Shown here: one piece after another, positions 41,609-52,787 of the stretch
How positions within the stretch are numbered: position 1 is the first letter of the stretch
Layout of the letters: each line of letters starts with the position of its first letter
NCBI GenBank assembly: GCA_019931185.1
Contig: JAINDK010000083.1
Span: 1-64,000, forward strand
Origin: Bryobacter sp. CoA8 C33
GTDB lineage: Bacteria; Acidobacteriota; Terriglobia; Bryobacterales; Bryobacteraceae
Length of the DNA stretch: 64,000 nucleotides
Direction: 5' to 3'
Position numbers and translations under genes: made by a program
Notes under the pieces: model-generated
Told to the model about the DNA's origin: nothing
What the model saw: the letters and a program-made list of their open reading frames with translations, nothing else
Databases searched by the model: none

Positions 41609-44063
41609 CAAACCCGAAATCATGAGCCCCGCCGGGCACTGGCCCCAACTCAAGGCGGCCATCGAAGCCGGTGCTGACAGTGTCTACTTCGGCCTCTCTC
41701 ACTTCTCCGCCCGCGCCAAGGTCGGCTTTACTCTCGAAGAGCTGCCCGAAGCCCTCGCCCTGCTCCATCGCCGCGGCGTCAAGGGCTACGTCACCTTCAA
41801 TACCCTCGTCTTCGACCGCGAATGGCAGGCCGCCATCCAGACCGTCGAAACGATCGCCACCGCCGGCGCCGACGCCATCATCGTCCAGGACCTCGGCGCC
41901 TGCTCCCTGATCCGCCAAATCGCCCCCGCTCTCCCCATCCACGCCAGCACCCAGATGACCATCACCAATGCCGATGGCGTCCGCCTCGCCCAGCGCCTCG
42001 GCGCCTCCCGCGTCAATCTCGCCCGCGAACTCTCCCTCGACGAAATCGCCCGCATCCGCGAGCAATCCGATTGCGAACTTGAAGTCTTCGTTCACGGCGC
42101 CCTCTGCGTTGCCTACAGCGGCCAGTGCTTCAGCAGCGAGGCCTGGGGCGGCCGCAGCGCCAACCGCGGCCAATGCGCCCAGGCCTGCCGCCTCCCCTAT
42201 GACCTCATCGTCGATGGCCAACCCCAACCCCTCGGCGATGCCCGCTACCTGCTCAGCCCCGGTGACCTCTACACTCTCGAGTGGGTCCCCCGCCTCGCCG
42301 CCCTCGGCCTCTCCGCCCTAAAAATCGAAGGCCGCTACAAGGACGCCGAATACGTCGCCCTCACCACCGCCGCCTACCGTAAAGCCGTCGACGGCCTCTC
42401 CACCATCAGCCCCGAAGACCGCCTCCGCCTCGAACAGGTCTACTCCCGCGGCCTCGCCCCCTTCTTCTTGAGCGGCACCAACCACCAGCAAGTCGTCCAG
42501 GCCCGCGCCCCCCGCCACCGCGGTGTCCTCCTCGGCTCCGTCGCCTCCCTCGAGCCCGATCGCGTCCTCATCAAAGTCAACGAAAATCATTCCATCGCCC
42601 CCCTCAAGCCCGGCGACGGCGTCGTCTTCGATGCCGCCTCCTGGCGCAGCCCCCAGGAAAAAGAGGAAGGCGGCCGCGTCTATGCCGTCTCCCCTCTCGG
42701 CAAAAATCTCCTCGCTGTCCAGTTCGGCAACCGCGACATCGACTTCTCCCGCATCCGCCCCGGCGACCTCCTCTGGCGCTCTAGCGATCCCGATCTCGAC
42801 CGCGCCGCCCGCGTCTTCACCCACGCCACACATCCTCTCCACCGCCGCCCCGTCGATATCACTGTCCGCGCCATCACCGGCCAGCCCCTCTCTCTCGAAT
42901 GGCGCCGCGCCGGCCTTCTCGTTACCGTCGAATCCAGCCAACCCCTCACCCCCTCCCCCCAGCAGGGCTTGACCCTCGACACCCTCCGCGAACAGCTTTC
43001 CCGCCTCGGCAATACCGCTTACTCCCTCGCCAGCTTATCCGCCGTCATCGAAGGCCAGCCCTTCGTTCCCCTTTCTCTGCTCAATCAGTTGCGCCGCCTC
43101 GCCGTCGAAAAACTCGATGCCGCCGCCGGCTCGCCCCGCCCCCTTCCCGTCGCACCCTGGCGCCCTCCCGCACCTCCCGCCGCCGGTCCCGCCGGCCCCC
43201 CCGAACTCCATCTCCTCGTCCGCGCCCCACGCCAGCTCGACGCCGCCATCGCCGCCCGCCCCGCCAGCATCACCCTCGATTACCTCGACCTCTACGGCTT
43301 ATGGCCCTCTCTGGAAAAACTCAAGGCCAGCGGCATCCCCGCCCGCGTCGCCAGCCCCCGCATCCTCAAACCCGGCGAAGATAAAATCGCCCACTTCCTC
43401 GCCAAGCTCGACTGCGCCCTCCTCATCCGCTCCGCCGGTCTCCTCGAAAATCTCCGCCAACGCGGCCTCCCCCACCTCACCGGCGACTTCAGCCTCAACG
43501 CCGCCAACTCCACCACCACGGCCCTCCTGCTCAACTCCGGCCTCGATCGCCTCACTCCCTCCCACGACCTCAACGCCGCCCAAATCGCCGCCCTCGCCCG
43601 CCAAACCAGCCCCACCCGCCTCGAATCCATCGCCTACCAGCACCTCCCCGTCTTCCACACCGAGCATTGCGTCTTCTGCCGCTTCCTCTCCTCTGGAACT
43701 TCCTATCTCGATTGCGGCCGCCCCTGCGAAAAACACGAAATGGCCCTCGCCGACGAACAAGGCCGCCACCACCCCGTCCTCGCCGACGCCGGCTGCCGCA
43801 ACACCGTCTTCGGCGCAGAAGCCCAGCACGCCGCCTCCCACCTCCCGCTCTGGCTCGAGGTCGGCATCCGCCACTTCCGCCTCGAATTCGTCCACGAAGA
43901 CGCCCCGGCCGTCTCCCGCATCACCGCTGCCTTCCGCCAAACTCTCGACGGCCTCCAATCCCCCGCCTGGCTCGAACACCAACTCCGCCTCGCCGCCCCC
44001 CAAGGCCTCACCGAAGGCAGCCTCTTCATCCCCAAATCCGAACCCCTCTTCCGCATCCTCTAA
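41601..44063 (+). CDS. Peptidase U32-family protein (RlhA/YegQ-like)
   Basis: The 820-residue protein starts [19 protein letters not shown], the family PEILAPAG-type beginning. It shows [30 protein letters not shown] and [11 protein letters not shown] (U32 core with conserved cysteines). A DUF3656-like C-terminal part ends with TEHCVFCRF and CGRPCEKHE. Characterised members hydroxylate tRNA or rRNA (TrhP, RlhA) rather than acting as proteases; length (E. coli RlhA about 650) makes RlhA-like the best guess. TTG 41601 is chosen because PEIMSPAG is conserved before ATG 41622 and GAAGGA lies 4 nt upstream of the TTG. Confidence 0.88.
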
Positions 44064-44071
44064 ATAAGAAA

Positions 44072-44093
44072 GCGGCGCCGTTTCCGGCGCCGC
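44072..44093. terminator. Bidirectional hairpin terminator
   Basis: A perfect 9-bp stem (GCGGCGCCG / CGGCGCCGC, loop TTTC) lies between the convergent U32 gene (stop 44063) and PQQ dehydrogenase gene (stop 44119). On the + strand it is followed by CCTTTTC; on the - strand by TTTCTTATTT. Both directions could terminate here. Confidence 0.8.
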
Positions 44094-44118
44094 CCTTTTC
44101 AAAAAAAACGACTGCTTC

Positions 44119-45669
44119 CTACTCCACCGTAAACGAAAACAGCGTATGCCCGCACGCGATCGCCACGTGCTGCTTACCATCCGCCGCCAGATACGAAATC
44201 GGGTTCGCAAACGCCTTGCCCCCCATCGGGAACCGCCACAGCAGCTTGCCCGTCGTGTCGTCCAGGGCCAGCATGTCGCCGTCTCCGGTGGCCGCAAATA
44301 CCAGCCCCCCCGCCGTCGACAACACCCCAGACCACGACGCCCCGCTCAGCGCATATTCCCACTTCGCCTTGCCCGTCGTGAAGTCCATCGCCTTGATCGC
44401 CCCAGTCGCTTCCTCCCCAGGCTTCGAGACAAACCGCCCCGCCAGATACCAACTGCCTTCCTTGTACGTATCGTCTCCCGAATAGAACACGCCGCCTTCA
44501 TCCCGCGTCATCACATAATGCAGCTTCGTTTGCGGGCTGTAGCTCGGCGCCTGGAAGTTCGTCGCCCCCGGCGAATTCGGATACACCACCGTCCCGTTCG
44601 GCGTCGGCGCCGTATTCGGCAACCGCACCGGCCGGCCCTTGGCGTCCAACTCCGGCTGCGCCCACGTCTGCCTCACATACTGCTTGCCCAGCAGATACTC
44701 TCCCGTCTCCCGGTCAAACACATAGTAGAAAGCATTCCGGTTGGCAAACAACACCAGCTTCCGCATCTTCCCCTTCCACATCTCGTCCACCAGCACCGGC
44801 ACCTGCGTCGCGTCCCAGTCATGCACATCATGCGGCGTGAACTGGAAGTACCACTTCATCTTCCCCGTGTCCGCGTCAATGGCCAGTATCGAATCCGAAT
44901 ACAGGTTGTCGCCCCGCCGCTTATCGCCCTTCCAGTCTGGCCCCGGGTTCCCCGTGCCCCAGAAAATCAGGTTCGTCGAGGGGTCATAGCTCCCCGTTAC
45001 CCAGGTCGTCGCCGACCCGTACTTGTAGCTGTCCCCCAGCCACGTCTCCGTCGCCTTGTCGCCCGCCGACGGCACCGTGTACAAACGCCAAGCCTGCTTG
45101 CCCGTCTTCGCCTCATAGGCCGCGATATAGCCCCGCACGCCAAACTCACCGCCCGCCGAGCCGATAATCACCTTGTCCTTCACAATCAGCGGCGCCACCG
45201 TCGAGCTGTAGCCCTTCTTGATGTCCGCCATTTCCACATCCCACACCACATGCCCCGTTGCCGCATCAAGCGCCACCAGATGCGCATCGAGCGTCCCGAT
45301 AAACACCAGATCGCCCAGCTTCGCCACCCCGCGGTTCACCCTTCCACAGCAATACGCCACGCTGTCCGGCAACACGCGCTTATACCGCCACAACACCTTG
45401 CCCGACCGGCTCTCGATCGCCGACACATCGCTCGGCGGCTCCGACACATACAGTATGCCGTTATCGGCAATCGGCGACGCCTCAAACTTATCCGTCTTAT
45501 CGATCTGCATCGCCCAGGCCAGCTTCAGCCGCGACGCATTCGTCTTGTTGATCTGCTTCAGCGGCGAAAAGCGATGGCCTTGCGGATTGCCCTGAAAGTG
45601 CAGCCAGTCGCCCGAAGGCGCTTGCGCGCTCAATAGCGCCGCCGTCGAAAGAGCAAGAAGAATCTTCAT
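44119..45669 (-). CDS. PQQ-dependent alcohol dehydrogenase, lanthanide-type
   Basis: The 516-residue periplasmic enzyme has a signal peptide and an eight-bladed PQQ propeller. Landmarks are the vicinal cysteines Cys107-Cys108 (AYCCGRVNRG), metal ligands Glu175 (GGEFG) and Asn241 (GTGNPGP), and the catalytic motif HDWDATQ with Asp284. Asp286, two residues on, is the extra aspartate that in XoxF/ExaF-type enzymes coordinates a lanthanide; calcium enzymes have Ala, Ser or Thr here. It likely oxidises an alcohol and passes electrons to the cytochrome encoded just upstream (TAATG overlap). It closes an operon with formate dehydrogenase. The substrate is not determined. Confidence 0.9.
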   Translation of the reverse strand: MKILLALSTAALLSAQAPSGDWLHFQGNPQGHRFSPLKQINKTNASRLKLAWAMQIDKTDKFEASPIADNGILYVSEPPSDVSAIESRSGKVLWRYKRVLPDSVAYCCGRVNRGVAKLGDLVFIGTLDAHLVALDAATGHVVWDVEMADIKKGYSSTVAPLIVKDKVIIGSAGGEFGVRGYIAAYEAKTGKQAWRLYTVPSAGDKATETWLGDSYKYGSATTWVTGSYDPSTNLIFWGTGNPGPDWKGDKRRGDNLYSDSILAIDADTGKMKWYFQFTPHDVHDWDATQVPVLVDEMWKGKMRKLVLFANRNAFYYVFDRETGEYLLGKQYVRQTWAQPELDAKGRPVRLPNTAPTPNGTVVYPNSPGATNFQAPSYSPQTKLHYVMTRDEGGVFYSGDDTYKEGSWYLAGRFVSKPGEEATGAIKAMDFTTGKAKWEYALSGASWSGVLSTAGGLVFAATGDGDMLALDDTTGKLLWRFPMGGKAFANPISYLAADGKQHVAIACGHTLFSFTVE

Positions 45670-46421
45670 TAGAGAGCACCCCGCAGTGAGAAGAGATACG
45701 CAATCAGGTCCGTCATTTCGTCCTCGCTGAACACCTTGCCGTAGGCCGGCATCGAGGATCGCGTCAGGTCGCGGTCAATCTTCACCGCTTCCGCTTTCGC
45801 AATCGTCTGGATCTTGCCCTTGCCGTCGCGCAGGCTCACGTGGAAATTGTCTTCGTTCAGCCGGATCCCCGATACCTTCTGCCCCGACTTCAGCGTCAGG
45901 TGCACCATCGACCAGCCCCCCACCATCGACGCGTTCGGGTCCACGATCGAAGTGCGCAGATTCCCCGGGCTTCGCATCGCCCCAATCAGCGTCAGGTCCG
46001 GGCCCGACCGCCCACCCTTTCCGTCCACCATGTGACAACCCGCGCATCCCCCCTTGCCCAGGTACAAGGCCTTGCCCTTCGCCGCGTCCCCGGCAATCGA
46101 GGTCGGCGCCGTCCGGCCCAACGACCGCACATACCCCGCCACCATCAGCATCTCCTGCTCGCTCATCCCCAGCGCCGGCGGCATGTCCGTTCCCCCGATT
46201 CCGTTGCGGATGATGTTCACCAGCGACGCATCCGTCGGGGCATGCACCAGGTTCGGCGTGACGAGATTCGCCGCCATGCCGTCGTCTCCCTTGCCGTGGC
46301 AAAAGGAGCAATGAAATTGATAGAGCTTGAGGCCCTCGCGCAGGCTGGCCTCATCGGTGGGAGCTTTCATCTGGGCTGACAAAGCCAGAGCGCACCACAG
46401 AGCGAGAATCGTGAGTCTCAT
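45669..46421 (-). CDS. Diheme c-type cytochrome
   Basis: The 250-residue protein has a signal peptide (MRLTILALWCALALSAQ) and two heme sites, CSFCH (38-42) and CAGCH (126-130). Each is followed by a Met-containing loop (GTDMPPALGM and RSSMPAYGKVF). The second half (KGKALYLGKGGCAGCH, SGPDLTLIG, SIVDPNASMVGG) looks like the TIGR02603-type heme-binding domain. It is the natural electron acceptor for the PQQ dehydrogenase with which it overlaps. ATG 46421 is chosen for the clean signal peptide and an AGGA 10 nt upstream. It starts 11 bp after the formate dehydrogenase gamma gene. Confidence 0.92.
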   Translation of the reverse strand: MRLTILALWCALALSAQMKAPTDEASLREGLKLYQFHCSFCHGKGDDGMAANLVTPNLVHAPTDASLVNIIRNGIGGTDMPPALGMSEQEMLMVAGYVRSLGRTAPTSIAGDAAKGKALYLGKGGCAGCHMVDGKGGRSGPDLTLIGAMRSPGNLRTSIVDPNASMVGGWSMVHLTLKSGQKVSGIRLNEDNFHVSLRDGKGKIQTIAKAEAVKIDRDLTRSSMPAYGKVFSEDEMTDLIAYLFSLRGAL

Positions 46422-46432
46422 GTTCGAAAATC

Positions 46433-47065
46433 CTATCTTAAATTGGCGGAGTCGCGCCATACCTTATACCACTTTGGATGATGAAACCGGGCCCACTCCG
46501 GGCTGACCCAGCCCCGCAGGATGGCCCGCATGGAGTGCGGCACCGCCGCCGTCCCCATGTAGATGTGAACCAATATGCCGCCGATCGATCCGATCGCGGC
46601 CAGCGGATGCGCCGCGATCGCTGCCAATCGCAGCCCCCGCGGCATCTCCTCCGGAAACCACAACACCACGCCCGAAACCAGCAGCAACAACCCCGTCGCC
46701 ACCTGGCTCCAGAACAACATCTTCTGCCCCGCGTTAAACCGTCCCGACGGCGGCAACGCCCCATGCTGGTGCGTCGCGTACTTATCCAGCCGCGTCAGCC
46801 AAACCCGGTCATCCGCGTCCAGATACATCGTCTTCGCCCACCGCCGGTACATCCACCCGATCACCACCGAAAACAGCACTCCCGACCACGGATGCGTCCC
46901 CCGGATCACAAAGCCACCACCCGACAGCGAAGCCAGCCAGTACAACACCGGCGTCCACAACGCCAGCCCCGTCAGCGCCGCGTAAACAAAACTCAGCGCC
47001 GCCATCCAGTGCATCACCCGCTCATAGGCGTCAAACCGCGGTATCCGTATCTCATCAAGCTTCAT
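46433..47065 (-). CDS. fdnI: Formate dehydrogenase cytochrome b556 (gamma) subunit
   Basis: The 210-residue membrane protein has four hydrophobic helices (RVMHWMAALSFVYAALTGLA, HPWSGVLFSVVIGWMYR, LFWSQVATGLLLLVSGVVLW, AAHPLAAIGSIGGILVHIYM). Its histidines (HW, HPW, HP, VHIY) are the expected heme b ligands. It matches FdnI/FdoI, which anchors formate dehydrogenase and passes electrons to quinone. The C-terminus SPEWARFHHPKWY is typical of the family. ATG 47065 overlaps the beta-subunit gene by 11 bp. Fits with alpha and beta subunits directly upstream. Confidence 0.93.
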   Translation of the reverse strand: MKLDEIRIPRFDAYERVMHWMAALSFVYAALTGLALWTPVLYWLASLSGGGFVIRGTHPWSGVLFSVVIGWMYRRWAKTMYLDADDRVWLTRLDKYATHQHGALPPSGRFNAGQKMLFWSQVATGLLLLVSGVVLWFPEEMPRGLRLAAIAAHPLAAIGSIGGILVHIYMGTAAVPHSMRAILRGWVSPEWARFHHPKWYKVWRDSANLR

Positions 47066-47867
47066 GCGTCGGTTCCTCCTCCGGATGCCCATGCTTTTCC
47101 GGATCCTGCGGACCAAAAATCACATAGTGGAAAAACGCCCCCAGAATCGACCCCATGAACACCATCGCCCCCAGCGCCTTCAGCGGGCCCTTCCACAACC
47201 TCACCGTCCACGGGATCTCCGGGTCCTTCGGCAACCCGTATTGCTCCGGCTGCGTCGCGTCGTTCAGCACATAAATCACATTCGTCCCGCCCACCCCTGC
47301 CGGGTTATAAATCCCCGCCTGCGCATGCCCGTCGGCCTTCAACTCCCGCGTCCGGATCTCCGCCGACCGCAGCAGCTCATCCCGCTCGCCAAACGTCAGG
47401 CAATTCGTCGGACACGTCTTGATACAGGCCGGCTCCAGTCCCACCGCCGTCCGGTCCGAACACAGCGAACACTTGTACACCTTCTTCGTCGCCGGGCTCA
47501 GCCGCGGCACATCAAACGGACAGCCCGTGATGCAGTACCCGCACCCAATGCAGTTCTCATGCACGAAGTCCACCGTCCCGTTCGCCATCTGCGTGATCGC
47601 CCCCGGCGCCGGACACGCCGCGATGCAGCCCGCCTCCGCGCAGTGCATGCACTGGTATTTCGACATCACCCACGACTGCGCCCCGTTGCGCTCCACTTCG
47701 TTGAACCGGATCAGGTTCCAGAAATTGTGCGCCAGATCCGGCATCGTCTGATACGACCCGTTGAACGTCCCCAGCGTATACTCCTGGTCGTTCCACTCCT
47801 GGCAGGCTACCTCGCAGGCTTTGCAGCCAATGCATAACGTTGTATCGATCAGCTTGGCGACGATCAT
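47055..47867 (-). CDS. fdxH: Formate dehydrogenase iron-sulfur (beta) subunit
   Basis: The 270-residue protein has four ferredoxin-like Cys clusters: CIGCKACEVAC, CMHCAEAGCIAAC, CIGCGYCITGC and CSLCSDR...CIKTC. These bind four [4Fe-4S] centres that carry electrons from the molybdenum/tungsten site to heme b. A single membrane helix near the C-terminus (KALGAMVFMGSILGAFFHYVIF) anchors it, as in FdnH/FdoH. The start overlaps the alpha-subunit stop (ATGA) and its end overlaps fdnI. Confidence 0.95.
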   Translation of the reverse strand: MIVAKLIDTTLCIGCKACEVACQEWNDQEYTLGTFNGSYQTMPDLAHNFWNLIRFNEVERNGAQSWVMSKYQCMHCAEAGCIAACPAPGAITQMANGTVDFVHENCIGCGYCITGCPFDVPRLSPATKKVYKCSLCSDRTAVGLEPACIKTCPTNCLTFGERDELLRSAEIRTRELKADGHAQAGIYNPAGVGGTNVIYVLNDATQPEQYGLPKDPEIPWTVRLWKGPLKALGAMVFMGSILGAFFHYVIFGPQDPEKHGHPEEEPTHEA

Positions 47868-50800
47868 GAGATCTTCTCCAGATTCACTAAGAAGCCCTTG
47901 TATTCCGGCGTGCCCGAGTTCGGGTCATACGCGCTCGGCGTCAGATTGTTGATCAGCGGACCCGTCACTTTCCCGACATAGCCCCAGTGGATTGGCAGCC
48001 CCACATGGTACGTCTTCTGCCCCTTCACCTTCAGCGTGCGCAGCCGCTTGGTCACCAGCGCCGGGCCTTCCAACTGGCCCCGGGCCGAGGACACCCTCAC
48101 CCGGTCGCCGTTGGCGATCCCTTTTTCCGCCGCCAGCTCCGCCGGCACCTCCACGAAGAAATTCGATTGCAATTCCGACGACGACGACGTGTGCTTCGTC
48201 CAGTAATGAAAGTGCTCCGTCAGCCGGTACGTAATCGCCACGTACGGAAAATCCTTCGCCTGCCCGAACTTCGCCCCTTCGCTCGAATACGTCTTCAGCA
48301 GTGGATTCGCACTCACATCCGGATGCAGCGGATTACTCACCGGGCTCTCGGCCGGCTCATAATGCTCCGGAAACGGCCCTTCCACCAGGTCCGGCGCAAA
48401 CAGCCGCGCCACCCCTTCCGGCAGCATGATAAACGCCGGCAAGGTCCCCGGCGCCGCGTCCGCCTTATAGTCGGGCGTGTCCCCCCGCCACCTCTCTCCG
48501 TCCCAAATCAGCGGCGCCCGCGTCTTATCCCATGGCTGCCCATTCTCATCCGCCGAGGCGCGGTTATACAAAATGCGCCGGTTCGCCGGCCATGACCACG
48601 ACCACTTCGGATACAGCCCCAGTCCCGTCGGATCCTCCTGCCCGCGCCGCGACATCTGATTGCCCGCCTCCGTCCAGCAACCCGAATACACCCAGTTGCC
48701 GCACGCCGTCGTGCCATCGTCCTTCAATTCTCCGAATCCGTTCACTTGCTTCAGCGTCGTCAGGTCCACCCCATTCACTTCCTTGGCCACCTCACTCAGC
48801 AAAGGCTTGTGCGGCAACGCATAATCCCAGCTCATGTTCAGCAGCGGCTCCCGCCCCTTGCCCCCGTCCTTCTCATACAGCCGCCGGATCTCGAGAAACA
48901 GCCGCGCGATGATCTCCTGATCCCGCATCGCCTCCCCCGGCGGATCCGTCGCGATTTCCTTCCACTGCAACCACCGCGATGAATTGACAAACGCTCCATC
49001 TTTCTCGGCAAAATTCGCCGCCGGTAACAGAAACACCTCGGTCTGTATCTGCTCGGCGCTCAACGCCTCCGGATAATCCTTCGCCGCCAAAGTCTTCGCA
49101 TTCCAAAACGCCGCCGTCTCCGTCTCGAAGTTCTCCGCCACAATCATCCACTTCAACTTCGACAGCGCCGTCAGCATCTTGTGCGTATTCGGCCCGTTCG
49201 CCACCGGGTTCATCCCAAAGCTGATCAGCCCCTCCAGCTTGCCCTGGTGCATATCGTCAAAAAACGCGCCCCAGGAATGATCCCCTTTATCCTCGATCTT
49301 CGGCAGCCAGCCGTAGCCATAATCGTTCTCCCGCTGCGCCTTCTTCCCGTAATAAGCCTTGAGCAGACTCGTCATGAACTTCGGCGTATTCCCCCAATAG
49401 TTCAGACTCTTGGCCTGCAACGCCTTCGGCGTGTTCACCTTCAGGTATTCCGCTAGCGTCGTTTGGCTCGCTCGCGGTATCTTCAGATACCCCGGCAGCA
49501 TGTTCCAGGCGCCCATGTCCGTCGAGCCCTGTATGTTCGCATGCCCGCGCTGCGCGTTCACTCCGCCCCCCGGCATCCCGATATTGCCCATCAGCAATTG
49601 CACCATCGCCGCCGCGTGGATCAACTGCACCGCGAACGAATGATGCGTCCAGCCCAGCGCATACAGCACCGTGCCTGACTTGTTCTCCGCCGCCGCCACC
49701 GTAATCATCTCCGCGGCTTTCAAAAACTCCTCCGGCGTACACCCGCAAACCTCCGCCACCTTCTCCGGCGTGTAGCGCGCATAATGCGCCTTCATCAGCT
49801 GAAACACACAACGCGGATGCTCGAGCGTCGCGTCCGTCTTCGCGTACCCGTTCCCGTCCAGCTCATACTGCCAGCTGCTCTTGTCGTAATGATCCTTTTC
49901 CCAGCCCGAGAAATGACCGTCCGCGAAGCCAAACCCCTCGGCAATCAGAAAACTCGCATTCGTATGCTCGATTACATACTTGCGCTGGTATTTGTTGTTC
50001 GTCACCGCGTAATGGATCAGACCACCCAGAAACGCAATGTCCGTCCCCGACCGGATCGGCACATAACAATCGCTCACCGCCGCCGTCCGCGTAAACCGCG
50101 GGTCCACGCAAACAATCTTCGCCTTGCGCTGCCGCTTGGCTTCCATCACAAACCGGAATCCCACCGGATGATTCTCCGCCGGGTTCCCCCCCATCACCAG
50201 CACGACGTCCGCGTTGGCAACATCCGTCCAACCGTTCGTCATCGCTCCCCTTCCGAATGTGGCGGCCAAACTGGTCACCGTGGGGCCGTGTCAAAGCCGG
50301 CTTTGATTCTCGTAGGCTAATATCCCCAACCCAAACCGGAATTTGCCCAATAAATAGTTGATCTCGTTGGTGTCCGTACACCCGCCGATCATCGCCACGT
50401 TCTCCAGGCGGTTTACCGTCCGCCCTTCCGCGTCCTTTTCTTCAAAACCCGCGTCGCGCGATGCCTTGATCCGCGCCGCCATCTTCCCAAAAGCCTCTTC
50501 CCAGCTCAAGTCCGTCCACTCGCGCGCCCCCGGCGCCCGGTAGCGCACCTTCGTCAGCCGCCGGTCGCTCTGCACAAACTCCTCGAGCGACGCCCCCTTC
50601 GGACACAAGGTCCCCCGGTTGATCGGCGATTCCGGGTCCCCCTCGATATGCACGATCGCCGACCGCACGTTCCGCGCCTTGTCCCCCAGCGTGTGTATAT
50701 TCACGCTGCAGCCAACGGCGCAATACGGACAAATCGATGTGTATTTCGTGGTGTTCGCCGTCTTCAGCGGCGCAATGTGCGCCGCGCTCGCGTTTTCCGC

Positions 50801-50902
50801 GGGCGCGCCCGTCAGCGTTGCTGCCGTACTCGCCCCCGTTGCCGCGCTCCGGGTAATAAAGTCCCGTCGGGAAGAATTCTTCGACATAGGGCTGCTACGC
50901 AT
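47864..50902 (-). CDS. fdnG: Formate dehydrogenase alpha subunit, selenocysteine-containing
   Basis: The 1012-residue catalytic subunit (E. coli FdnG is 1015) oxidises formate at a bis-MGD molybdenum or tungsten site. It has a twin-arginine leader (SRRDFITRSAATGAS), the [4Fe-4S] motif CPYCAVGC...LCPKG, and molybdopterin regions including VLVMGGNPAENHPVGF. The codon at 50291-50293 is TGA inside SRL-U-HGPTV, precisely where selenocysteine lies in FdnG; the frame continues as TSLAATFGRGAMTN. An automated call would split the gene in two. ATG 50902 has GAGGA 12 nt upstream; ATG 50887 is an alternative. Twin-arginine export places the site in the periplasm. Confidence 0.95.
50253..50293 (-). promoter_or_regulatory. 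Bacterial SECIS element at the fdnG UGA codon
   Basis: Immediately 3' of the UGA, the mRNA reads CACGGCCCCACGG then UGACCAGUUUGGCCGCC. A small hairpin CCA-GUU-UGG has its loop about 19 nt after the UGA, close to the 18-nt spacing in E. coli fdhF, and GG/CC pairs extend the stem. This is the expected SelB-binding signal. The fold is drawn by eye. Confidence 0.75.
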
Positions 50903-50927: not shown

Positions 50928-52787
50928 TCACCCGCTCAGCGCCACCAAATACTCCACCAACCGCGGCACATAACTCCTCATCCGCTCACTCGCCTTCGGA
51001 TCCTCCTTCGGCAGCGCCGCGATCCGCGCCCGCCACGGCTTCAGCTTCTCTCCCCCAATCTCCGTCAGCGAATTCAACGCCGCAATCGCCAGATAATTCC
51101 CGTTCACCGCCGCATCCGACAGCTTCAACAACTCCTCCACCGCCGGCTTCAAATCCTCCGCCGTCCCATACCGCGCCAGCGCCTCCGCCGCCAGAATCCT
51201 CACATTCGCCGACTCGTCCCCCGCCAGCCTCCCCCGCAGTGCCTCCCCGCACACCTCAACCGCCGACGCCCCTCCCCGCAATACCCCCACCGCGCACCAA
51301 TACCGCACCGCCGCATCCCCATCACTCAGATACGTGCGAAAGATCTCCGGCTGCGTCAGCGTCAGCCCCGTCGCCAACTCCGCCGTATTGATGACCCGGT
51401 TCACCGCATACCTTCCGGCATCCGCCGCCATCGTCACCGGCGCATCCGCCCCCGCCCGCGCATGAATCTCATGCTCCGGCAAAAAACCCACATCCCGTAT
51501 CCGCACCGCCAGCGACGTCTGCTCCGCCCTCATCCGGTTCATCTCCGAGCGCTGCTCCGCCGTCGGCCGCAACGCCAGATTCTTCACCTCATCCGGGTCC
51601 GTCTGCAAATCATAAAACTCCTCGGCCGGCTTCGTCCGCCAAAACTGGCTCTGCGCCTCGTTCGCCTTCCCGCTGTCATACACCTCCTTCCACTTCCGCG
51701 TCGTCGGCATCTCGAACATGTAATTCACATGCTGCCCGTATATCCGGTGCGGCATGTAGTTCCGGATATACACATAGCGCTGGTTCCGCACCGACCGCAC
51801 CATGTCGATGCGCTCATCCATCCGCCCCCGGAACCCAAACACATAATCCCGCTCCGCTCCGATATGCTCACCCAAAAACGCTTGCCCCTGGTGATACTCC
51901 GCCTTCTTCATCCCCGCCAGGCTCAGCACCGTCGGCGCCAGATCCACAAACGAAATCAGCCGCTCCGTCCACTTCCCCGCTCCGTAATCCTTCGGCGCCA
52001 GATGCCGGAACTGCTCCGGGATATGCACCATCAGCGGCACCTGCAACCCCGAGTTGTACGGCCACCGCTTCGACCGCGGCATCCCCGCCCCGTGGTCCGA
52101 ATAGAAAAACACTATCGTCGAATCGTTCAGCCCGTCCGCCTCCAATTCCTTCAGCGTCCGGTTCACCATCCCATCCATCGTCTCGATGTTGTCGTAATAC
52201 TGCGCCCAGTCATGCCTCACCTCCGGGCTGTCCGGATGATACGCCGGCACCCGCAACTCCCGCGGATCATGCCGCAACTGGTGCGGCGTCTTCCGGATTT
52301 GGCTCTCGTGCGTGATCACAAAATTGAACACCGAGAAAAACGGCTGCTTCTCCCCCCGGCCCCGCCAGTGCGCCTTCGTCGAAGACTCATCCCACACCTT
52401 CCCCGTATGCGCCAGATTGTAGTCTTCCTTGTTGTTGTTCGTCGTGTAATACCCCGCCTCCCGCAATAGCTGCGGAAACATCTTCTGCCCCGGCCCCAGC
52501 TTCGTCATGCTCCGCATATGCTCGGCCCCCGTCGACGGCGGATACATCCCCGAAATGATCGTCGTCCGCGCCGGCGCGCACACCGGCGCATTCGACCAGC
52601 AATGCCGGTAACGCAGGCTCCGCTCCGCCAGCCGGTCAATCGCCGGCGACTTCGCATACCGGTCCCCATAGCACCCCAGATTCGGGCTCATGTCCTCACA
52701 CGTCACCCACAATATATTCGGCAGTTGCTTCCCCTGCGCCTCCATCAACGGAGCGGCACTCGCAGTCAGAAATTCTCGTCGCAGCAT
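50928..52787 (-). CDS. Type I sulfatase with C-terminal HEAT-like repeats
   Basis: The 619-residue protein has a short export leader and the sulfatase start NILWVTCEDMSPNLGCYGD. The formylglycine motif is CAPAR with Cys70, followed by TTIISGMYP. Then come FFYSDHGAGMPRSKRW and a metal/substrate His region. Cys70 is expected to be oxidised to formylglycine by an external maturase. The last ~130 residues (LSDGDAAVRYWCAVGVLRGG, NVRILAAEALARYG) are HEAT-like repeats, an unusual fusion. It probably desulfates a glycan. It lies 25 bp upstream of fdnG and 13 bp after the MFS gene. Confidence 0.92.
   Translation of the reverse strand: MLRREFLTASAAPLMEAQGKQLPNILWVTCEDMSPNLGCYGDRYAKSPAIDRLAERSLRYRHCWSNAPVCAPARTTIISGMYPPSTGAEHMRSMTKLGPGQKMFPQLLREAGYYTTNNNKEDYNLAHTGKVWDESSTKAHWRGRGEKQPFFSVFNFVITHESQIRKTPHQLRHDPRELRVPAYHPDSPEVRHDWAQYYDNIETMDGMVNRTLKELEADGLNDSTIVFFYSDHGAGMPRSKRWPYNSGLQVPLMVHIPEQFRHLAPKDYGAGKWTERLISFVDLAPTVLSLAGMKKAEYHQGQAFLGEHIGAERDYVFGFRGRMDERIDMVRSVRNQRYVYIRNYMPHRIYGQHVNYMFEMPTTRKWKEVYDSGKANEAQSQFWRTKPAEEFYDLQTDPDEVKNLALRPTAEQRSEMNRMRAEQTSLAVRIRDVGFLPEHEIHARAGADAPVTMAADAGRYAVNRVINTAELATGLTLTQPEIFRTYLSDGDAAVRYWCAVGVLRGGASAVEVCGEALRGRLAGDESANVRILAAEALARYGTAEDLKPAVEELLKLSDAAVNGNYLAIAALNSLTEIGGEKLKPWRARIAALPKEDPKASERMRSYVPRLVEYLVALSG

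Follow-up and report, generated by a model that had tools for sequence, protein, structure and literature searches.

Why would a bacterium keep a selenium enzyme and an enzyme of a type that often uses rare earths in one run of genes? The question is raised by a 64,000-nt stretch of Bryobacter sp. CoA8 C33 DNA (the window), in which five genes on the minus strand follow one another in one direction from position 50902 to position 44119: fdnG, fdxH and fdnI for a formate dehydrogenase, then a diheme cytochrome c gene and a gene for a dehydrogenase of the pyrroloquinoline quinone (PQQ) family. An earlier note on this DNA had placed the five genes so that they overlap or lie at most 11 bp apart, and both the spacing and the coordinates are right; the junctions are, in order, a 4-bp overlap, an 11-bp overlap, an 11-bp gap and a 1-bp overlap, the 11-bp overlap and the 11-bp gap depending on inferred starts of fdnI and the cytochrome gene. 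We consider it fairly probable that this five-gene operon, carried by one acidobacterial lineage, yields two exported respiratory dehydrogenases. It is a real, conserved operon, probably of single origin, and a new arrangement of known enzymes; no description of a fdn-cytochrome-quinoprotein arrangement was found among the titles and abstract beginnings that searches of the open-license PMC library listed. Two respiratory enzymes with unusual cofactors, passed on as a single block among uncultured bacteria, make a clean, testable case.

A selenocysteine formate dehydrogenase-N

The first three genes encode a selenocysteine (Sec) enzyme of the formate dehydrogenase-N (FDH-N) type, as the earlier note had held for the Sec enzyme, and this half of the operon is well supported by the sequence evidence. 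The in-frame TGA of fdnG aligns with the Sec residue of E. coli FdnG (1kqf_A), and when the gene is read through it, the 1012-residue product aligns with 1kqf_A over nearly its whole length. A TGA occupies the same place in every fdnG sequence that we collected. The part of the alpha subunit that follows the TGA scores 1111.5 bits with TIGR01553 (cut-off 814.2), and the beta and gamma subunits are likewise above the curated cut-offs of their own models (Table 1). The genome also holds the means to decode the codon. A tRNA-Sec gene is found at C117:33056-33146 with 73.4 bits, by a model that is loose (it has matches at E ≤ 0.001 in 14 of 14 control genomes and above cut-off in five), and ARAGORN also calls a tRNA-SeC with anticodon tca at the same position. 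On contig C62 lies selB, whose 354.4 bits exceed the cut-off of 242.25; of 41 genomes, 34 have a selB above cut-off, as do 2 of 14 controls. That the TGA is a true stop is rejected by its conservation, by the homology that reads on beyond it, and by tRNA-Sec and SelB. The hairpin region after the TGA shows some two-sided changes in a consensus over 31 distinct sequences, with one pair broken in 6 of the 31 and the region itself coding.

FdnG carries a Tat signal (TIGR01409, 20.2 bits, cut-off 16.7), and signal-like N-termini are seen by eye on the cytochrome and the quinoprotein, which agrees with the periplasmic placement proposed in the earlier note for both enzymes. In FdnI, aligned to 1kqf_C, four histidines and a NAGQK stretch are kept, residues that we take to be the heme ligands and the quinone site; with these kept, quinone is the expected acceptor of the formate electrons. 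The proposal that electrons pass to both quinone and cytochrome c is in keeping with these FdnI residues and with the diheme cytochrome partner. Thus, FdnGHI resembles its E. coli counterpart (1kqf) in its Sec residue, Tat signal, three subunits and heme and quinone-site residues, and differs from it in what follows, since in the window operon a cytochrome-quinoprotein pair comes next. We also made gene calls in 14 fetched fdn operons of relatives that are without the pair (L163-L176). In at least five of them (L166, L169, L172, L174 and L175) fdnI is followed by an FdhE-type gene, which in four cases is above a Pfam cut-off, and in L167 a DUF2959 gene takes this place; the remaining operons have no FdhE-like frame there or are incomplete in sequence.

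The cytochrome-quinoprotein pair

The cytochrome has two CxxCH motifs and reaches just 25 bits with the MoxG model, whose cut-off is 147.8. A contig scan with the quinoprotein, in which the best 80 of 131 relatives were kept, gave 79 loci, and a similar cytochrome gene lies directly upstream of the quinoprotein gene in 76 of the 78 with enough sequence. The five other full-length quinoproteins in the same genome also have such a cytochrome. The pair is therefore likely to be an old acidobacterial module, and the cytochrome would be the expected electron acceptor of the quinoprotein. Three of these five paralogues (G000:C70, C111 and C109) have frames of 754-809 amino acids that seem to fuse cytochrome and quinoprotein.

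The quinoprotein itself is above the cut-off of TIGR03075, the model for PQQ-dependent alcohol dehydrogenases (Table 1). The earlier note had pointed to Asp286, two residues past the catalytic Asp284, and the alignment confirms this: both residues align with the Asp pair in XoxF (4MAE) and in PedH (6ZCV), so that the extra Asp by which a lanthanide-type enzyme is recognized is present. Among solved relatives the best score goes to 1kv9 (350.8 bits), followed by PedH 6zcv (339.1), 1yiq (312.7) and XoxF 4mae (312.6). To place the active site among its relatives, we built an alignment of 118 quinoproteins, chosen for their resemblance to the window protein and so not a random sample, from which tblastn pieces of fewer than 400 query residues, with stops or with E > 1e-60 were dropped and near-identical copies removed (137 rows reduced to 118). 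We examined 13 PQQ, metal and catalytic positions, whose roles we take to be those of the corresponding positions in MxaF and XoxF. The window protein retains all 13, as do 13 of 14 orthologues; the row of the fourteenth (L031) is shortened by a frame change and is without E63. All 13 are kept in just 29 of the 118 relatives. Many of the 118 no longer have the Cys-Cys pair, Glu63 or Glu175, and D284, D286, Trp223 and Arg311 are kept in every row. In L031 (5515-7010, genome G179) the gene is split between two reading frames around residues 73-82, owing either to a frameshift or to an assembly error.

Three solved enzymes mark out where the window protein stands. It shares with PedH (6zcv/6zcw), a lanthanide PQQ ethanol dehydrogenase, the PQQ family, the Cys-Cys pair and the D-x-D motif; it differs in its length of 516 amino acids, in reading HDWDATQ where PedH reads WDFDGVN, and in a host genome in which no pqqC or pqqE was found. 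The type II quinohemoprotein alcohol dehydrogenase 1kv9 is the best-scoring solved relative and has the same ATQ after the motif, as has 1yiq, whereas it carries Thr in place of Asp286. In 1kv9 the heme domain is fused to the enzyme, and in the window the diheme protein is separate. XoxF (4mae) shares the D-x-D motif and, in the acidobacterial xoxF3 clusters treated in part of PMC10875860, the acidobacterial hosts. It differs in scoring lower than the alcohol dehydrogenase types, in reading WDYDGVN at the stretch where the window protein has HDWDATQ, and in its gene company, the window operon being without a xoxJ, cox or NRAMP gene; the xoxF3 clusters described in that part of PMC10875860 have other neighbors. 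Judged by XoxG/XoxJ neighbors and a methanol dehydrogenase-type motif, the window operon does not qualify as a XoxF methanol dehydrogenase system: its diheme cytochrome is far below the MoxG cut-off, it has no xoxJ, and its quinoprotein reads HDWDATQ.

Conservation and origin of the linkage

Is the arrangement more than a chance of one assembly? Among the best 79 loci, 13 (L020-L032) have a quinoprotein 72-86% identical to that of the window, and the others are at most 53% identical. In nine of the 12 that can be judged (L020, L022-L028 and L031), fdn genes lie directly upstream of the cytochrome-quinoprotein pair, with the L020 contig starting just before fdxH and the fdnG of L027 truncated by a contig end. 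L029, L030 and L032 have the cytochrome upstream and no fdn; L021 was left out of the judgeable loci, since its sequence begins with the PQQ gene. Family-wide, an orthologue (E ≤ 1e-235) is found in 18 of 237 genomes from six genera, and in a survey that overlaps with that of the named loci, linkage is seen in 10 of the 17 genomes that can be judged (G000-G005, G011, G177, G179 and G185; G007 was not judgeable). Close spacing is retained among proteins that are 79-88% identical. Chance neighbors in one assembly are therefore rejected, since the arrangement recurs across genomes. The neighborhood survey proposed in the earlier note thus bears out a conserved unit, one that is limited to genera g1 and g5, two of the six that bear orthologues. 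In a quick tree of 57 rows, the 11 rows labeled as linked form one clade (SH-aLRT 99, the only support measure used), the label requiring one change; one of these rows, L131 of G007, is labeled linked though its contig begins at the PQQ gene. With the linked copies in one clade, fdn and the pair were probably joined once, in an ancestor of g1 and g5. Orthologue records are labeled Bryobacter, Bryobacteraceae or just Acidobacteria, among others.

One member of the genus, G006 (four contigs, 98% complete), lacks all five genes. It has no fdnG match at E ≤ 1e-60 and no close orthologue of the quinoprotein (best 49%), and at the syntenic site (L200, G006:C3:571500-591400) three small open frames stand in place of the five genes. 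The order of neighbors around the site is kept, with nuoI, GDE, MFS and sulfatase on one side and U32, cysK, rrf2, enolase-like and tyrS on the other (nuoI, GDE, MFS, U32, cysK and rrf2 named by eye), and one additional open frame lies between MFS and sulfatase. G006 also has no selB above cut-off (best 197.8 bits), and its best tRNA-Sec match, with E 4.2e-7, is apparently under the gathering score, judging from the listed E-values. Either direction of change, loss in G006 or gain in the others, would fit.

In all 15 of the 18 orthologue genomes that were tested (ten among 101 relatives, plus the genomes of L026, L028, L029, L031 and L032; G111, G126 and G127 fell outside the test) fdnG is present, and this includes four of four in which it is unlinked (G054, G075 and the genomes of L029 and L032). 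The base rate of fdnG is 41 of the 101 relatives, and shared descent weakens the count of 15 as a statistic.

Proposed function and the points against it

We propose that FdnGHI would oxidize formate at the outer face of the membrane, with the electrons moving by way of FdxH and then the cytochrome b subunit to quinone, and that in the periplasm the D-x-D quinoprotein would oxidize a small alcohol or aldehyde, whose electrons would go to the diheme cytochrome c and then to an oxidase. The old cytochrome-quinoprotein module would have come to sit directly behind fdnI, probably once. A lanthanide is the likely metal, PQQ would come from outside, and the shared purpose of the two enzymes may be a periplasmic electron harvest from small one- and two-carbon compounds.

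Several results weigh against this reading. The tie between the missing operon of G006 and a loss of the Sec machinery is not clean in the other genomes: G007 and G010 carry a UGA-containing fdnG without selB above cut-off, and G005 and G007 have no strong tRNA-Sec (best E 1.2e-6 and 7.1e-8); the assemblies of G005, G007 and G010 consist of 610-1080 contigs or are of lower completeness, so Sec genes may be missing from them. The window's 40-nt selenocysteine insertion sequence (SECIS) region, taken by itself, shows no fold beyond that of shuffled sequence: of 500 shuffles, 191 are as stable. No fdn lies nearby in seven of the 17 judgeable orthologue genomes (G054, G075, G111, G126, G127, G213 and G282), where unlinked means no fdn match in the available sequence, which is shortest in L029, with about 2 kb on the upstream side. 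A scan of the region for sigma-70-like promoters gave 0 sites against 2.6 expected, and terminator-like sites across the region show no excess as a class (7 found, 5.5 +/- 2.3 expected); a single transcript of all five genes is therefore only inferred. The D-x-D motif does not discriminate, since each of the 118 aligned relatives carries both D284 and D286; it cannot set the window enzyme apart, and Asp286 is rejected as its special mark. Finally, pqqC (E ≤ 0.001) and pqqE (E ≤ 1e-60) were not found in the organism's own genome, which is 97.7% complete, or in its seven genus mates (G000-G007 in all), and part of PMC12124388 places the PQQ importer PqqU, within Acidobacteria, in the class Vicinamibacteria only.

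The most interesting complication lies in the PQQ genes that were not found, and the earlier note had not considered it when it assigned alcohol oxidation to the PQQ enzyme. The cell apparently does not make PQQ by the known route, so the holo-enzyme would need PQQ from outside, or its cofactor would be something else. Across 41 genomes (G000-G040), pqqC is above cut-off in three (G013, G027 and G035), with a weak match below cut-off in G015, and pqqE at E ≤ 1e-60 and above cut-off is found in the same three. Of the 30 genomes in this set that have a quinoprotein at E ≤ 1e-150, as many as 28 are without either gene above cut-off, which poses the wider puzzle of how, or whether, such quinoproteins get PQQ. 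The three genomes with both genes hold 20, 16 and 40 first-look quinoprotein candidates, as against up to 72 in others. Passages of PMC12124388 describe PQQ scavenging through PqqU, report synthesis genes in just 23% of the bacteria that encode PqqU, a figure by which PQQ users without synthesis are common, and suggest that other Acidobacteria may make PQQ or obtain it by diffusion. In a paragraph on its 38 XoxF-containing genomes, PMC10875860 credits 16 of its genomes with the ability to make PQQ.

The alternative that survives best holds that the operon is two independent electron-harvesting modules side by side, kept together by drift or by shared expression and serving unrelated substrates. 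A linkage that probably arose once and stayed within g1 and g5, the unlinked state of seven of 17 judgeable orthologues in available sequence, and a quinoprotein that scores best against alcohol and ethanol dehydrogenases, whose products are not formate, all suit it. The close spacing kept among proteins that are 79-88% identical and the joint absence of the five genes from G006 speak for a common fate instead, as does fdnG in each of the 15 tested orthologue genomes, with its base rate and kinship allowed for. On balance we regard this alternative as possible, if somewhat unlikely.

The metal of the quinoprotein could also be calcium. Asp284 and Asp286 make lanthanide use plausible, in line with the earlier note's reading of Asp286 as the lanthanide signature. 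In favor of calcium, ATQ follows the motif as in 1kv9 and 1yiq, which we take to be calcium enzymes. The motif, besides being constant among the relatives, is also found in the characterized membrane glucose dehydrogenase, which complexes calcium, magnesium and others according to part of PMC11996626, so it is no proof of lanthanide dependence. The same part of that paper predicts the glucose dehydrogenase to be facultatively lanthanide-dependent, and counts three Acidobacteria genomes among those unusually rich in such genes, with up to 70 per genome. We hold calcium as the in vivo metal to be unlikely.

The earlier note's proposal that an alcohol and then formate are oxidized is possible, with genes for a PQQ dehydrogenase and an FDH-N both present. 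In its strictest form the proposal becomes a complete periplasmic one-carbon line, in which the quinoprotein takes methanol or formaldehyde to formate and FdnGHI takes formate to CO2. Such a line is made possible by the adjacency of the two enzymes and by the lack of any sign of a cytosolic formaldehyde route of two kinds: no fae was found in 13 genomes searched, and the eight genus genomes gave no match at E ≤ 1e-60 to a glutathione-type formaldehyde dehydrogenase; formaldehyde routes other than these two were not searched for. XoxF enzymes can oxidize formaldehyde, as part of PMC10875860 reports. Yet 1kv9 and PedH outscore XoxF, HDWDATQ stands in place of WDYDGVN, and there is no XoxJ-like gene in the operon. 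Because the best solved relatives are alcohol or ethanol dehydrogenases, the product need not be formate, and an ethanol-type substrate would be at least as likely as methanol or formaldehyde. We therefore judge the one-carbon line rather doubtful. A broader version, in which one operon would run from alcohol or aldehyde through formate to CO2 in the periplasm and need selenium, Mo or W, a rare earth and a quinone cofactor not produced in the cell by the known PQQ route, strikes us as quite improbable; PQQ would then come from neighbors through an unknown importer, or another quinone would serve.

That the quinoprotein is instead a member of the "empty" acidobacterial family, without PQQ and with another role, is very unlikely: although TIGR04528 (acido-empty-quinoprotein group A) is the second-best NCBIfam model with 523.6 bits and neither pqqC nor pqqE was found in the own or genus genomes, that score is under the cut-off of 650 while TIGR03075 is above its own, all 13 site residues examined are intact as in only a minority of relatives, and PQQ users that do not synthesize it are common by the PqqU figure in PMC12124388.

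Features and surroundings of the operon

The coordinates of the operon and its signals are collected in Table 1. Rfam at gathering scores gave no match within the window. Past the last gene, the stretch 44050-44125 around the terminator-like hairpin folds with a z of -4.24, and 0 of 200 shuffles are equally stable.

Table 1. Genes and signals of the operon, with positions in the window
Feature	Positions	Strand	Evidence
fdnG, formate dehydrogenase-N alpha subunit, Tat signal, Sec204	47864..50902	-	aligned to 1kqf_A residues 11-1010
UGA Sec codon (50293-50291) and adjoining SECIS-like hairpin region	50264..50293	-	TGA in 32/32 fdnG
fdxH, iron-sulfur beta subunit, C-terminal transmembrane helix domain PF09163	47055..47867	-	TIGR01582 356.2 bits (cut-off 334.7); PF09163 56.4 bits
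fdnI, cytochrome b556 gamma subunit, start inferred	46433..47065	-	TIGR01583 172.9 bits (cut-off 115.85); 1kqf_C residues
Diheme cytochrome c (CSFCH, CAGCH), signal-like N-terminus, start inferred	45669..46421	-	PF13442, PF00034
PQQ-dependent-type alcohol dehydrogenase, 516 aa, D284-x-D286	44119..45669	-	TIGR03075 540.5 bits (cut-off 480.05)
Intrinsic-terminator-like hairpin, 22 bp past the PQQ gene, between two convergent genes	44069..44096	-	12 pairs, 9 G-C

On the other side, a sulfatase gene (50928-52787) ends 25 bp ahead of fdnG. We rejected it as a member of the operon, for it is present in G006 without the operon. Among the other linked loci with several kb of upstream sequence (n = 4), the sulfatase was not found in L023 and is represented by just a weak 37% piece in L026, and it lies 760 bp away in L024 and 22 bp away in L025.

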